64,000 bases of DNA. It comes from Streptomyces sp. NBC_01264. GTDB lineage: Bacteria > Actinomycetota > Actinomycetes > Streptomycetales > Streptomycetaceae. Numbering within the stretch: position 1 is the stretch's first letter; each line of letters starts with the position of its first letter. The notes under the pieces are model-generated. The model searched no databases and was not told where the DNA came from. It worked only from the letters and a program-made list of their open reading frames with translations. Positions 35,241 through 40,625 of the stretch are shown piece by piece. Made by a program: the position numbers and the translations under genes. The stretch is from the NCBI RefSeq assembly GCF_026340675.1, contig NZ_JAPEOX010000002.1, positions 930,001 through 994,000 of the forward strand, written 5' to 3'.

Positions 35241-35256
35241 GGTAGGATCCGGATGT

Positions 35257-35766
35257 ATGAGTGACGAAGGACGCGAGCTCTACTCGGTCGGCGAGGTCGC
35301 CGAGCTGCTCGGGCTGCACGTGCGCACCGTCCGGAACTACGTGCGCGACGGCCGGCTCAAAGCCGTCCGGATCGGCAAGCAGTACCGGATCAGCCGGGCG
35401 GACTTCGAGGCCCTGACGAGCCGCCCCGCCCCCGCCGCCGCCGAGGATCCCGGTGCCACCGGGGAGACCCCGCGGCGGCACGTGGAGGTGTCGAGCATCG
35501 TGCAGATCGACGCGATCGGCCCCGACGCGGCGAGCCGGCTCGCGAACCTCGTCACGGCGAGCGCGCAGTCCCCGCGGGCCACCCCGGCGGCCCTGCGCGT
35601 CCAGACGGTCTACGACAAGGAGCGGGCCCGTATGAAGATCGTGATCCTCGGCGACGCCGCCACCACCGCCGATCTGCTGAACCTGGTCGATGGGGTGCTC
35701 GGCCCGGGCAACGGCATGGGGAACGACCTCGACACCCACGACGCGGCGGGGGCGCACCATGGCTGA
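35257..35766 (+). CDS. Excisionase/MerR-type helix-turn-helix protein
   Basis: This 169-residue protein has an N-terminal HTH_17 (excisionase-like) domain: ELYSVGEVAELLGLHVRTVRNYVRDGRL and VRIGKQYRISRADFEAL, at residues 5-55. After a Pro/Ala linker comes an unrecognised domain (HVEVSSIVQIDAIGPDAASR, YDKERARMKIVILGDAATTADLLNLVDG). It is probably a DNA-binding regulator of the overlapping DUF4180 gene. ATG at 35257 lacks a good Shine-Dalgarno, but TAGGAT lies eight bases upstream, as in leaderless transcripts. The stop overlaps the next start by eight bases (35759-35766). Confidence 0.8.
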   Translation: MSDEGRELYSVGEVAELLGLHVRTVRNYVRDGRLKAVRIGKQYRISRADFEALTSRPAPAAAEDPGATGETPRRHVEVSSIVQIDAIGPDAASRLANLVTASAQSPRATPAALRVQTVYDKERARMKIVILGDAATTADLLNLVDGVLGPGNGMGNDLDTHDAAGAHHG

Positions 35767-36181
35767 CCTCCTCGTGGAACACCACGGCGTGCCGGTCCTG
35801 GTCTGCGCCGCCGACGGCCCGCCGGTCGCCACCGAGCAGGACGCGCTCGACCAGCTCATCGGCGGCGCCTTCTACCGGACCGACATCGTCGCCGTCCCGG
35901 TGGAACGCCTGGACGCCGGCTTCTTCGACCTGCGCAGCGGGCTCGCCGGGGCCATCATGCAGAAGTTCGTGAACTATCACGTCCGCCTGGTGGTCGTGGG
36001 CGACCTCTCGCACCACCTGGAGGCCAGTACGGCCCTGCGCGATCTCGTACGGGAGTCGAACGAGGGCCGCCACATCTGGTTCCTGCCCGACCTGGACGCC
36101 CTGGCCGCCCGCCTCGCCCCGGCCGGCGAAACGGGCCCGGGCACTCCGGATTCCGCATCCGCGGAATCGTTCGGCGGATAA
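35759..36181 (+). CDS. DUF4180 domain protein
   Basis: This 140-residue small protein matches the DUF4180 family: HGVPVLVCAADGPPVATEQD, then ALDQLIGGAFYRTDIVAVPVERLDAGFFDLRSGLAGAIMQKFVNYHVRLVVVGDLS and ALRDLVRESNEGRHIWFLPD. The pattern is a compact alpha/beta fold, and the function is not known. It overlaps the HTH gene by eight bases, so translation is coupled. The two-gene arrangement suggests a regulator with its cognate partner. Confidence 0.85.
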   Translation: MADLLVEHHGVPVLVCAADGPPVATEQDALDQLIGGAFYRTDIVAVPVERLDAGFFDLRSGLAGAIMQKFVNYHVRLVVVGDLSHHLEASTALRDLVRESNEGRHIWFLPDLDALAARLAPAGETGPGTPDSASAESFGG

Positions 36182-36257
36182 GCGTTATCGAAGTCCCCCT
36201 CGACGGTCTCCCAGGTATTGGGCATCATCGAGCGCCGGTACGGACAGGGACTTTTCT

Positions 36258-37934
36258 ATGAGCACTCAGCACACGGCAGCGCTGGTCGCCGCGGCCCGCG
36301 CGGGCGACCCCCGCGCGCAGGACGACCTGGTCAGCGCCTATCTGCCGCTGGTCTACAACATCGTCGGGCGGGCCCTGAACGGGTCCGTCGACGTGGACGA
36401 CGTGGTCCAGGACACGATGCTGCGGGCACTCGACGGGCTGGGCGGCCTGCGCGACGACCACAGCTTCCGGTCCTGGCTGGTCGCGATCGCCATGAACCGG
36501 GTCCGCGCCCACTGGCAGGCCCGGCGCAGCGCCCCCGGCGAAAGCGGCCTCGAAGCCGCCTGGGAGCTCGCCGATCCGGGCGCCGACTTCGTGGACCTGA
36601 CCGTCCTACGGCTCCAGCTGGAGGGCCAGCGGCGCGAGACGGCCCGTGCCACGCGCTGGCTGGAGCCCGACGACCGGGCGCTGCTGTCCCTGTGGTGGCT
36701 GGAGTGCGCCGGGGAGCTGACGCGCGCGGAGATGGCGCAGGCCCTGGAGCTGTCCCCGCAGCACACCGCGGTACGGGTGCAGCGGATGAAGGCACAGCTG
36801 GAGGCGGCCCGGGTGGTGGAGCGGGCGCTGGGCGCCCAGCCGCCCTGCGAGGAGCTGCGGGCGATGGCGGGGAGCTGGGACGGCCTGCCGTCGGCCCTGT
36901 GGCGCAAGCGAATAGCCCGCCACGCCCGAGAGTGCCTGCACTGCGCCGGTCTGTGGAACGGCCTGGTCCCGGCCGAAGGGCTGCTGGCCGGGCTGGCGCT
37001 GCTGCCGGTCTCGGCGGCGCTGGTCGCGGGCGTACGGGCCGCCCTGGACTCCGGCTTCACCTCCGCGGGCCTGGCCACCACGGCTTCGGCGTACGGCGCT
37101 GGCGGTGGAACGGGCGGGGACGGGACCAGTGGCACAGGCGGTGACGCGAGCGCCGGAGGCGGCGAAGCGCAGTTCGCCGTCACCCCCGGCCCCGGCGACG
37201 GGCGTGCCTCGCTGCGCAAGTTGCGGCGCACCCGCGGCCGGCGCCGGGTGATCGGCGGGGCGGTGCTCGCCGCCTGTGTCGTGGGAGGCGGGCTGACCTA
37301 CCTCGGCACCCGGCCCGGCACCGACCCCGTCGAGGCACCTCCGGCCGCGCTCGTGGCACCGGAATCGGGGACCGCGCTGTCCCCGGAGCCGGCCTCCCCC
37401 ACCCCGAGCCTCTCGGTGTCCGCCTCCCCGAGCACCTCGGCGAGCCCCGGCCCGAGCCCCACGCCGACGCCGAGTCCGACGCCCACGCCCACCCCGAAGC
37501 CCAGCCCGAAGACCACCCCGCCGAAGAAGCCCGCTCCCGCCCCGCCGGGCGGCAGCACCGCCGCCCAGGTGATATCCCTGGTCAACTCCGAGCGCGCGAA
37601 GGCCGGCTGCGGGCCGCTCAAGGAGGACGCGCAGCTGCGTACGGCCGCCCAGGGACACTCCGACGACATGGCGCGGCGGGACTTCTTCTCGCACACCAAC
37701 CCGGACGGCGCGGACCCGGGCAAGCGGACCACCGCCGCCGGGTACCGCTGGTCCACCTACGGGGAGAACATCGCCCTGGGCCAGCGGACCGCGGCCCAGG
37801 TGATGGATTCCTGGATGAAGAGCCAGGGCCACCGCGAGAACATCCTCAACTGCTCCTTCAAGGACATCGGCGTGGGCATCCACCAGGGCGCCGGCGGCCC
37901 GTGGTGGACGCAGAACTTCGGCGCCCGGATGTAG
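36258..37934 (+). CDS. ECF sigma factor fused to a zinc-finger, membrane anchor and extracellular CAP domain
   Basis: This 558-residue fusion has the following order. Region sigma-2 at about 13-85 (DDLVSAYLPLVYNIVGRALN, then DDVVQDTMLRAL and SFRSWLVAIAMNRVRAHW). Sigma-4 at about 118-190 (DRALLSLWWLECAGELTR, then AQALELSPQHTAVRVQRMKAQ). An anti-sigma-type His-x3-Cys-x2-Cys in RHARECLHC near 225. A hydrophobic stretch at about 234-262. A clear transmembrane helix at about 329-350. A Ser/Pro/Thr wall-spanning spacer at about 385-435. A CAP/SCP domain at 437-555 (VISLVNSERAKAGCGPL, FSHTNPDG, TYGENIALG, SQGHRENILNC). It looks like a sigma factor held at the membrane until an outside signal frees it. 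ATG has GGACAGGGA upstream. Confidence 0.88.
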   Translation: MSTQHTAALVAAARAGDPRAQDDLVSAYLPLVYNIVGRALNGSVDVDDVVQDTMLRALDGLGGLRDDHSFRSWLVAIAMNRVRAHWQARRSAPGESGLEAAWELADPGADFVDLTVLRLQLEGQRRETARATRWLEPDDRALLSLWWLECAGELTRAEMAQALELSPQHTAVRVQRMKAQLEAARVVERALGAQPPCEELRAMAGSWDGLPSALWRKRIARHARECLHCAGLWNGLVPAEGLLAGLALLPVSAALVAGVRAALDSGFTSAGLATTASAYGAGGGTGGDGTSGTGGDASAGGGEAQFAVTPGPGDGRASLRKLRRTRGRRRVIGGAVLAACVVGGGLTYLGTRPGTDPVEAPPAALVAPESGTALSPEPASPTPSLSVSASPSTSASPGPSPTPTPSPTPTPTPKPSPKTTPPKKPAPAPPGGSTAAQVISLVNSERAKAGCGPLKEDAQLRTAAQGHSDDMARRDFFSHTNPDGADPGKRTTAAGYRWSTYGENIALGQRTAAQVMDSWMKSQGHRENILNCSFKDIGVGIHQGAGGPWWTQNFGARM

Positions 37935-38069: not shown

Positions 38070-40625
38070 GTGGGGCGCATCAGCAGGCAGAAGCTCCGTC
38101 CGCACCAGCGCGAGGCCGTCGACGCCGCCGTGCGGGCGCTGGAACTGCCCGCCGGGCGCAGGGTCCCACGGACCGGGCTCCGTACGCAGGTCATCATGGC
38201 GACGGGCTCCGGCAAGTCGCTGGTCGCCGTGCACACGGCCGAGGAACTGCGGGCCGGCCGGGTGCTGGTGCTGGTGCCCTCGCTGGACCTCCTCGTGCAG
38301 ACCGCGGCGGCCTGGCGCGAGGGCGGCCGCACCGGCCGCGCCTTCGCCGTGTGCTCGCTGCGCGCCGAGGACGCGGGGGTGCCCACCACCACCGACCCGG
38401 CCGAACTGGCCGGCTGGGCGGGCCCGCCCGTCGTCCGGGTCACGGTGTACGCCACCTACGCCTCGCTCGGCCTGGGCACCATCGAGCGCGCGCACCGCGA
38501 GGGGCTGCCCGGCTGGGACCTGGTCGTGGTCGACGAGGCGCACCGGACCTCGGGACGCATCGGCAAGCCCTGGGCGGTGGTGCACGACAACGTCCGGATC
38601 CCCTCGGTCCGCCGGCTGTACATGACGGCCACGCCCCGGGTCTGGCAGGACGGCGAGGATCCCGGGTCCGCCGAGGGCGAGGAGCCCGGCGAGGGCTCCG
38701 ACCGGCCGGAGGCGGTGCGCGGCCGGGGCGACCTGGTGGCCTCCATGGAGGACGATCCGGACGGGCCGTTCGGCGCGCGCTGCTACACCCTGACCCTCTC
38801 GGAGGCCGTCGACCGGGGCATCTGCGCGCCCTATCGGGTGGTCTGCGTGGACGTCAGCGATCCGGAGTTCCAGGCGGCCGTGCTGCTCGGCCCGGACGGG
38901 CGCTCCGACGCCGTGCGCGGGGTGCGGCTCGCGGCGCTCCAGACGGCGCTGGTGACGGCGGCCGTGAAGCAGGGGTTCCGGCGCACGCTGGTCTTCCACC
39001 ACCTGACCAAGGAGGCCGAGGCCTTCGCGGCCGGTCTGCCGGCGGTCGCCGACCGGCTGCGCACGGCGAGTTGGGCCCCGCGGCCGGTGTACCCCCGTAC
39101 CGTCTGGGCGGACTGGCTGTGCGGGCAGCACACCGCGGCGCACCGGCGCCGGGTGCTGGGCGCCTTCGCGGACGAGCGGATCGCGGACAAGGCCTTCCTG
39201 GGCAGCGTCCGGGTGCTGGGCGAGGGGGTGGACACCAAGGAGTGCGACTCGGTCTTCTGGGCCGACGTGCGGGGTTCCATGCCCGACCTGGTGCAGGCCG
39301 TCGGCCGGGCGCTGCGCATCCGGCCCGGGGAGGGCAAGGTCGCCTCGCTCGTGGTGCCGGTGCTGCTGGGGCCGGGCGAGTCCCCCGAGACGATGCTGAC
39401 CTCACGGGCGTACGGGGACCTCGCGCGGCTGCTGGAGGCGCTACGGGCCCACGACACCCGGCTCGTCGAATCCCTGGCGCAGCCCCAGGCCCCGAGCCGG
39501 CGCACGGCGCAGGGCGCGGCGGAGGCCGTGGGCGGTTCCGGTCTGCGCGGCGGCGCGCAGTCCCTGCTGAGCTTCTCCACCCCGCGCGACCCGGCGCTGC
39601 TGGCCGCCTTCGTCCGGCTGCGCGTCCTGCACCCGGAGCACGAGCACTGGCGGCGCGGGGTGGAGGCCGCCCGGATCTACGCCGGGCTCGCCGGTGACCT
39701 CAAGGTGCCGTTCGCGTTCAAGGTGCCCGCGGACGGGGGCGCGGGGGCCGACACGCCCGCGCCCGCGGACGGGGGCACGGAGGCCGAGACGCCCACGCCC
39801 GCCGCGGAGGACCGGGAAGCCGGGGCCCTGTGGCCGCCGGGGCTGGCCCGGTTCCCGCTCGGCCAGTGGATCGCGGATGCCCGGCGCACGTACCGCCGCG
39901 GGGCGCTCGGCCACCGCCGGGTGGCGCAGCTCGACGAACTGGGCATGGTGTGGAGCCACTTCGACGTGGCGTTCGAGGGGGGGCTCGCGGCGGCGAGCGG
40001 CTGGGCGGCCGAGCACGGTCACCTGCTGCCTCCCGTGGACGCCACCTGGCGCGGCGCCCCGGTCGGGGTCTGGGTCAAGAACCAGCGGGCGGCGGCCCGC
40101 CGAAAGGGCCCGGGCGCCCTGTCCGAGGAGCGCCGGGAGGCCCTGGAGGCCGTCGACGCCTCCTGGTGTCCGTCCTGGGAGATCTCCTGGCAGCGGGCCT
40201 TCCACCTGACCCGGGTCCACCTGGACGCGGGCGGCCGGCTCCCGGCGCGCCCCGGGGAGGCCGTGGTCCAGGGCGAGGACCTCGGCGTGTGGCTGCGCGG
40301 CCAGCGCGCGTCCTGGGAGCGCCTGGCCTGGGCCCAGCGCTGGCTGCTGGAGCACACCCTCGGGGTGGTCCCGGCCGAGGGCGCGGACCGGCCGAAGCCC
40401 CGGGTGGCCCATGCCGACGCGTGGGCCGCCCATCTGGAGGCGGCCCGGCGGTTCCACGAGCGCGAGCGGCACCTGCGGGTGCCCCGTACGCACGTGGAGC
40501 GGGTCGGCGACCGGGACCTGCGGCTCGGCTCCTGGATCGCCAACCAGCGCTCCCGCGCCGCGTCCCTCACCCGGGAGCGGACGGCGGCGCTGACGGAGCT
40601 GGGGATGCGCTGGTCGGCGTCCTGA
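38070..40625 (+). CDS. Superfamily 2 DEAD/DEAH helicase with helicase-associated repeats
   Basis: This 851-residue SF2 helicase has Walker A MATGSGKS at residues about 45-52, motif II VVVDEAHR near 153, motif III YMTATPR and a C-terminal RecA lobe with TLVFHHLTKEAEAFAAGLP, GEGVDTKECDSVFW and QAVGRALRI. An Ala/Thr/Pro-rich linker near 555-575 is followed by at least four helicase-associated (HA) repeats: GQWIADARR, GVWVKNQRAAARR, GVWLRGQRASWERLA and GSWIANQRSRAASL. Such helicase-HA proteins are common in Streptomyces and of unknown role; the HA repeats probably bind DNA. GTG at 38070 is the only upstream start seen, with no clear Shine-Dalgarno. Confidence 0.88.
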   Translation: MGRISRQKLRPHQREAVDAAVRALELPAGRRVPRTGLRTQVIMATGSGKSLVAVHTAEELRAGRVLVLVPSLDLLVQTAAAWREGGRTGRAFAVCSLRAEDAGVPTTTDPAELAGWAGPPVVRVTVYATYASLGLGTIERAHREGLPGWDLVVVDEAHRTSGRIGKPWAVVHDNVRIPSVRRLYMTATPRVWQDGEDPGSAEGEEPGEGSDRPEAVRGRGDLVASMEDDPDGPFGARCYTLTLSEAVDRGICAPYRVVCVDVSDPEFQAAVLLGPDGRSDAVRGVRLAALQTALVTAAVKQGFRRTLVFHHLTKEAEAFAAGLPAVADRLRTASWAPRPVYPRTVWADWLCGQHTAAHRRRVLGAFADERIADKAFLGSVRVLGEGVDTKECDSVFWADVRGSMPDLVQAVGRALRIRPGEGKVASLVVPVLLGPGESPETMLTSRAYGDLARLLEALRAHDTRLVESLAQPQAPSRRTAQGAAEAVGGSGLRGGAQSLLSFSTPRDPALLAAFVRLRVLHPEHEHWRRGVEAARIYAGLAGDLKVPFAFKVPADGGAGADTPAPADGGTEAETPTPAAEDREAGALWPPGLARFPLGQWIADARRTYRRGALGHRRVAQLDELGMVWSHFDVAFEGGLAAASGWAAEHGHLLPPVDATWRGAPVGVWVKNQRAAARRKGPGALSEERREALEAVDASWCPSWEISWQRAFHLTRVHLDAGGRLPARPGEAVVQGEDLGVWLRGQRASWERLAWAQRWLLEHTLGVVPAEGADRPKPRVAHADAWAAHLEAARRFHERERHLRVPRTHVERVGDRDLRLGSWIANQRSRAASLTRERTAALTELGMRWSAS

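Follow-up and report, generated by a model that had tools for sequence, protein, structure and literature searches.

Does an open reading frame that joins a sigma factor to a CAP domain encode one protein, and what would such a protein do? The question is raised by the gene at positions 36258-37934 of a 64,000-nucleotide stretch of Streptomyces sp. NBC_01264 (contig NZ_JAPEOX010000002.1), which is called the window here. A sequence-only reading had proposed that a single polypeptide carries a cytoplasmic sigma factor, an anti-sigma-type motif, a transmembrane segment, a long spacer and an extracellular CAP domain, and that it converts an outside signal (protein, sterol or wall ligand) directly into sigma release without a separate anti-sigma factor. 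The analysis described here partly supports that interpretation. It goes further in three respects, namely a shared promoter, varied ectodomains on one chassis, and candidate targets that match the sensor. With a probability of roughly 0.64, we read the protein as a one-piece transmembrane receptor sigma factor with predicted self-activation and, in relatives, with targets that fit the sensor.

Table 1. Features of the sigma-CAP gene and its product in the window, and of the RNA element found in genus g24 (coordinates of the latter are those of the fetched loci).
Feature	Position	Strand	Basis or remark
Predicted autoregulatory ECF promoter, CGTTATC (-35)-N16-GTCTCC (-10), 75 bp upstream of the ATG	36183..36211	+	
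Purine-rich ribosome-binding-like site (ggacaggga)	36242..36250	+	by reading; similar in most orthologues by eye
Sigma-ZAS-TM-spacer-CAP receptor sigma factor (putative receptor), 558 aa, ATG start	36258..37934	+	ORF, Pfam, NCBIfam
Sigma region 2, residues 24-90	36327..36527	+	Pfam PF04542 (Sigma70_r2), 3.2e-14; model resembles sigma-E region 2
Sigma region 4, about residues 131-185	36648..36812	+	TIGR02937 reaches residue 182; model helices 137-192
Zinc anti-sigma motif, C197-x24-H222-x3-C226-x2-C229	36846..36944	+	sequence, homologues
Conserved hydrophobic stretch 3' of the zinc motif, residues 238-262	36969..37043	+	hydropathy peak 2.15; two short helices in the model
Transmembrane helix (predicted), residues 331-349	37248..37304	+	hydropathy, peak 1.93
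Pro/Ser/Thr-rich spacer, residues 351-435	37308..37562	+	composition
CAP domain, residues 440-554	37575..37919	+	Pfam PF00188, 1.3e-22
RNA element copies	L264:196-389, L266:192-386, L267:219-398, L288:204-367, L302:205-391, L304:233-418		
RNA element copies	L269:2707-2897, L279:2643-2820, L283:2650-2837	-	

The protein is an ECF sigma factor by its profile matches. The NCBIfam model for the ECF core (sigma70-ECF, TIGR02937) covers residues 20-182 at 1.1e-18, together with the Pfam region 2 family. Sigma region 4 finds no Pfam match in the 558-aa protein, which returns only an AsnC-type HTH at 0.037. The zinc motif conforms to the class I zinc anti-sigma pattern of H-x3-C-x2-C with an upstream Cys or His, and is fuller than the His-x3-Cys-x2-Cys that the sequence-only reading had noticed. 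The features expected of ECF52/ECF53-type fused sigma factors are found, including a C-terminal zinc finger, a membrane helix recognised by hydropathy only, and a proline-rich extension, which is the long Ser/Pro/Thr spacer already described. At the C-terminus, the PF00188 profile places the protein in the CAP superfamily, and H479, E503, H525 and the Cys pair 451/532 are invariant in an alignment of 45 sequences. We take H479, E503 and H525 to be the His/Glu cavity residues of CAP proteins.

The structure model of the full-length protein is poor (pLDDT 57.6), and that of the chassis reaches pLDDT 84 with pTM 0.53. Compared domain by domain, the chassis model is similar to ECF sigma factors whose structures were solved together with class I anti-sigmas. 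Its structure matches include sigma-E, AlgU and SigW, with whole-model TM-scores of only about 0.3. The matches listed cover mainly residues 1-197, and few of them extend into the zinc part. The gene is flanked just upstream by a MerR/HTH_17-type regulator gene (window 35251-36178), which overlaps a DUF4180 gene, and downstream by a DEAD/ResIII helicase gene with helicase-associated (HA) repeats (window 38070-40625).

The fusion itself is seen directly in the window and in its relatives. A homologue search scored 7993 candidates, of which 4463 proteins fell under E 1e-3, and the best-listed 120 of these all contain both Pfam domains. The zinc motif is present in 121 of 121 proteins when the window protein is added, and in 244 of 244 proteins of a wider set. 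From GTDB contigs, the best 80 of 409 relatives were fetched, 78 titled Streptomyces and 2 titled 'Actinobacteria bacterium'. The zinc motif is present at all 80 loci, and the CAP end can be seen at 74 of them. The remaining six comprise four cuts at a contig end, one broken frame (L053) and one run of N (L073). Since the domains and the zinc motif are kept together across homologues and loci, the sigma and CAP halves are one protein, as had been claimed, and not two proteins made separately. The fusion is not a chance read-through and is conserved in Streptomyces. Conservation, taken as the mean share of the 121 proteins that have the residue of the window, is 0.91 and 0.94 in the two sigma regions and 0.87 in the CAP domain. 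In the own genome, the sigma part has seven other matches, with a best E of 2.5e-5; two of the seven were read (L119 and L120), and both were ruled out as fused receptors.

A promoter-like motif is directly seen upstream of the gene. A pair of boxes near YGTTATC-N16/17-RTCYCC is found in 80 of 80 upstream regions tested, the accepted variants having been picked by eye after looking. These regions come from the window and 79 loci; L026, with less than 350 bp, was omitted. The distance from the first six bases to the second box is 17 bp in 78 regions and 18 bp in 2. Among the 78, YGTTAT is present in 75 and the following C in 72. In 64 of the 80, the distance from the beginning of the first box to the start codon is 75 or 76 bp. 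When a fixed form, [TC]GTTATC-N15/17-[GA]TC[TC]CC, is counted over the 776,435 bases of the window and 80 loci, it is found 73 times, in each case ahead of the sigma gene; the mirrored form is absent. Across 121 Streptomyces genomes, the extended motif is found within one mismatch in 43 genomes at 50 places, and the reversed control is found nowhere. Of 30 motif loci fetched from this Streptomyces set, 27 precede a gene of this sigma type. Since the motif stands before the own gene across relatives, the sigma-CAP gene probably activates itself.

In the own genome, the window site (36183-36211) is the only exact copy of YGTTAT-N17-RTCTCC outside a gene. The other exact copy (C1:2920247, L086) lies inside a gene on the opposite strand. 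The TGTTAT form has no occurrence in this genome, and it misses even the own gene because the window reads CGTTATC. Near matches, such as one before a lactonase-like frame (L094), were not convincing. The four other CAP genes of this genome all lack the motif, even when two mismatches are allowed, so that only self-regulation is predicted in this strain.

The same chassis carries several kinds of sensor. When the sigma/zinc part of a relative (P0122) was used as the query, 1957 proteins fell under the cut. Among the best 120, the ectodomain is a right-handed beta-helix, a PF11790 glycosyl hydrolase, DUF4185 (often with PF16396) or CAP, or has no Pfam name. Plasmid records hold AbfB ectodomains, recognised by Pfam in L206:3450-5036 and L207:3501-5066 and by eye in L205:3492-5075 and L211:3477-5051, as well as a GH99-like ectodomain (L209). 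Arabinofuranosidase genes adjoin the AbfB-sensor genes of L207 and L211, and a gene annotated as beta-helix adjoins that of L206. A quick tree of 117 chassis, for which long branches were flagged, requires 8 changes among the seven ectodomain labels; the least possible number is 6 and the shuffled mean is 63. The sensor ectodomains thus seem mostly to have been gained once and then kept. The promoter motif is found before genes with CAP, beta-helix, PF11790 and unnamed sensors. Within two mismatches, it is absent before the genes of the four AbfB types, the GH99 type and the S. anulatus sigma-CAP protein. The unnamed ectodomain (FHVASGG..RM) occupies about residues 350-558 of P0123, is also seen in L315, L340 and L350, and has no Pfam match. 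Some genomes possess two motif-bearing sigma-CAP genes, namely L273/L274 (G298), L275/L276 (G216) and L299/L300 (G252).

What else stands behind the motif was read from a wider set of genomes. The exact form TGTTATC-N16/17-GTCTCC is present in 124 of 297 genomes of the family, and the reversed control has 2 matches. A subset of these sites was fetched as 120 stretches from 76 genomes with 140 sites, and an ORF was assigned to 128 of the sites by length and codon-position GC. Sigma-receptor genes follow 58 of the 128 (44 with CAP, 6 with PF11790, 6 with the unnamed domain and 2 cut at a contig end). The other 70 precede 25 CAP genes without sigma, 12 thaumatin-like, 10 alginate-lyase-like, 10 ricin-lectin and 6 beta-helix-like genes, and 7 ORFs without a class. 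These classes were set by our own sequence motifs, with Pfam run on representatives only. There it returned Thaumatin at 7.5e-52 and 8e-65, Alginate_lyase at 1e-12, CAP at 8.1e-13, RicinB_lectin_2 at 1.4e-26 and PF11790 at 2.5e-49. The representative of the beta-helix-like class (L316) gave no convincing Pfam match.

A hydrophobic segment lies at the N-terminus of most of these candidate target products (59 of the 70). The remaining 11 consist of 8 alginate-lyase-like proteins, which show a twin-arginine-like start, one wrong frame at L261 and two ORFs without a class. In the motif-bearing free CAP proteins, a single hydrophobic segment near the N-terminus follows an Arg-rich stretch, as judged by eye. 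The 12 sites that received no ORF in the first pass include 1 sensor gene, 4 starts or remains of target-class genes (by look) and 7 positions before an RNA element, which is described below. In genus g24, long proteins stand behind the exact motif (L272, L280, L281, L282, L285, L289, L293, L296, L297 and L301). They mostly end in a WYYGGWLLELQ stretch, with L285 running off the fetched end, and in L272 and L281 Pfam finds ricin-B lectin and fn3 together with a weak M12-type metallopeptidase match. Another ORF behind an exact copy (L305:252-2936) combines ricin lectin, pectinesterase and GH28.

Sensor and target types tend to go together across genomes. Of the 76 fetched genomes, 30 have both a typed sensor and a typed target with the exact motif; in the other 46, one or the other was not seen behind an exact copy. 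Among the 30, free CAP genes are confined to genomes with CAP sensors (19 genomes), thaumatin-like genes to those with PF11790 sensors (3 genomes), and alginate-lyase-like genes to those that possess the unnamed sensor (5 genomes from three genera). This pairing holds in 27 of 27 cases, compared with a shuffled mean of 15.7 and a maximum of 23 in 20,000 shuffles, under a rule fixed after seeing the data and with L261, L263 and the classless ORFs excluded. It is also confounded with genus and not significant within two of three genera. Shuffles within a genus reach the observed pairing in 1267 of 5000 (g1), 998 of 5000 (g17) and 233 of 5000 (g24), in a run that included L261. Outside the rule, ricin-lectin genes are found in 7 genomes, all with CAP sensors, and beta-helix-like genes in 3, all with the unnamed sensor. 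For half of the alginate-lyase-like sites (5 of 10) and most thaumatin-like sites, the genome yielded no typed sensor.

Gene order also speaks for the pairing. Of the stretches fetched from genus g24, twenty contain a pair of motif copies at a distance of 1.06-1.35 kb. The second copy precedes the sigma-CAP gene in 20 of 20, and the first precedes a CAP gene without sigma in 18. The other two first copies precede a frame with a free-CAP N-terminus (L261) and a short frame of 141 aa (L251). In Kitasatospora NBC_00039, exact motifs stand before a free CAP gene and the adjoining sigma-CAP gene. S. anulatus has a two-mismatch copy at the CAP gene that immediately precedes its sigma-CAP gene. G058 has a free CAP gene and a convergent neighbouring sigma-CAP gene with a one-mismatch copy each. 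In G039 and G042, an exact copy lies at the sigma-CAP gene and a one-mismatch copy before a free membrane CAP gene elsewhere.

In genus g24, nine motif sites are followed by an element of 164-195 nt that folds into several branches with a strong last hairpin. The element was cut, by our choice, from 6 nt after the -10 box. In the alignment of the nine copies, 95.6% of cells pair, as against 34-48% in slid controls. Ten pairs change on both sides, compared with 5.6 in shuffled alignments, and the covariation score is 0.224 versus 0.149 (0 of 500 shuffles). Further pair types are not beyond shuffles (148 of 500), and Rfam gives no match to the element up to E 0.1. Sigma E of enterobacteria has sigma-dependent small RNAs. 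The g24 element may be a similar, sigma-dependent small RNA.

From these observations we infer topology, release step, transcription and signal or ligand for the sigma-CAP protein as follows. At rest, the intramolecular zinc anti-sigma domain would hold the sigma core at the membrane, as its motif suggests. When the extracytoplasmic CAP domain meets a ligand or partner, this hold would give way; SCO4117 and IutY suggest by analogy that regulated proteolysis, in the membrane or close to it, is the likeliest route. Once free, the sigma part would drive promoters near the consensus given above, including that of its own gene, which would form a positive feedback. In relatives, its further targets would be genes whose secreted or membrane products fit the sensor; for the CAP class, these products would chiefly be free membrane-anchored CAP proteins. 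Some other ectodomains on the same chassis would use the same promoter with other candidate targets. A free CAP protein sharing the ligand could, speculatively, provide further feedback.

The placement of the sensor depends on how many times the chain crosses the membrane. At a hydropathy cut of 1.4, two stretches of the window protein stand out, residues 241-259 with the invariant Pro250 and residues 331-349 with an Arg-rich flank before them. If both were membrane helices, the CAP domain would be cytoplasmic and there would be no outside sensor; the first stretch has in fact the higher peak (Table 1), and at a cut of 1.5 both stretches appear in 7 of the 17 relatives printed. However, the later stretch is found in 17 of 17 and is the only one above the cut in 10 of 17. 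Because of this last count, residues 331-349 are taken as the membrane helix. Residues 238-262 are read as a part of the anti-sigma domain, though they are as hydrophobic as that helix. The Arg-rich flank before 331, the proline in the first stretch, the spacer, the invariant Cys pair of the CAP domain and the single N-terminal hydrophobic segment of free CAP proteins (by eye) all speak against two helices, an arrangement we regard as quite improbable. A location of the CAP domain outside the cell, as proposed in the earlier reading, is probable. Still less credence is given to the idea that the sigma part no longer transcribes and the protein chiefly anchors and displays CAP at the membrane. 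The weak region 4 in Pfam would fit that idea, but the sigma regions are the best conserved parts of the protein, and motif and sigma gene go together.

The motif could instead belong to another regulator (a sigma factor, a repressor or an activator), the sigma-CAP gene being merely one of its targets. In part of the orthologues, the first box forms a near palindrome, GATAAC-T-GTTATC, as for a dimeric regulator, and many target sites lie in genomes where the exact pattern caught no sensor, with both present in the 30 genomes counted above. However, the palindrome is gone in other clades (AAGAACTGTTATC), where the boxes stay 17 or 18 bp apart, as for -35 and -10 elements, and the sigma gene follows the motif more often than any other gene class, both in the Streptomyces set and among the family sites with an ORF. 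This explanation appears improbable to us. A further alternative keeps the receptor and changes only its activation: ligand binding would alter the conformation, no proteolytic release would take place, and the tethered sigma would work in place. Six neighbouring genes in the window were scanned and no protease is among them, and the report on SCO4117 leaves both ways open (PMC5826349). On the other hand, cleavage is expected for the fused systems that have been reviewed, and IutY does undergo it (PMC8999054). Activation in the tethered state is unlikely, yet it is the alternative to which we give the most weight.

The preferred reading, a receptor sigma factor released from the membrane, can be widened to the family. 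We lean slightly towards the view that Streptomycetaceae possess one-piece receptor sigma factors with a shared chassis and, for several sensors, one promoter, in which the ectodomain predicts the regulon; in one genus, a structured small RNA would be under that promoter too. The pairs in this view would be CAP with CAP proteins, the glucanase-like PF11790 with thaumatin-like proteins, and the unnamed domain with alginate-lyase-like proteins. Since the sensor is fused to the sigma factor and the promoter is readable in the DNA, signal, sigma factor and regulon can be tested together. If the rule is true, the ectodomain alone would name the signal and response of an orphan sigma factor, a route would open to what bacterial CAP proteins bind, and simple parts for one-protein transcription switches would become available. 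The clostridial SigI/RsgI biomass sensors would also have a counterpart made of a single protein, whose range takes in non-carbohydrate domains, CAP among them.

The fused sigma/anti-sigma plan is by itself not new, because sigma factors fused to their own anti-sigma and a membrane part are already known from ECF48, ECF52, ECF53 and IutY (PMC8999054; for ECF52, PMC5826349). In the open-licence literature searched, the main ECF classification papers aside, we found neither a member with a CAP ectodomain nor the promoter motif nor targets matched to the sensor. In IutY of Pseudomonas putida, sigma and anti-sigma also share one polypeptide that is activated by proteolysis, whereas its role is in iron-siderophore cell-surface signaling (PMC8999054). 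In Clostridium thermocellum SigI/RsgI, the sensor domain likewise resembles the target enzymes and the sigma gene is autoregulated, with a GH10 domain in RsgI6 and xylanase genes under the control of SigI6 (PMC4711584; SigI promoters in PMC6056542). The logic of a sensor that resembles its target thus has a tested precedent in this two-protein system (PMC4711584). In contrast to the single ORF here, SigI and RsgI are separate proteins, SigI lacks region 4 and the targets are cellulosomal.

The closest likeness is to ECF52 and its relatives. SCO4117 of Streptomyces coelicolor shares with the window protein an ECF sigma factor, a zinc finger, a membrane region, a proline-rich extension and an extracellular module, and its sigma domain alone is reported to activate its own gene (PMC5826349). 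That module is a carbohydrate-binding one, whereas in the window protein Pfam finds only CAP outside the sigma part; the two are likened by architecture. The motif proposed for SCO4117 in the same source is CSGYN-17bp-SRHA, as against TGTTATC-N16-GTCTCC here. ECF53 and ECF48 share the fused zinc anti-sigma and membrane part and a predicted proteolytic activation (PMC8999054, PMC10766802); this likeness again concerns architecture. Where ECF53 has a glycosyl hydrolase ectodomain, the window protein has CAP, and chassis relatives carry PF11790. The glycosyl-hydrolase and carbohydrate-binding domains of some ECF52 and ECF53 members are given as predictions without experimental validation (PMC10766802). 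We consider the window protein most plausibly a variant of the ECF52/53 kind with a CAP sensor, for which a regulon matched to that sensor is predicted.
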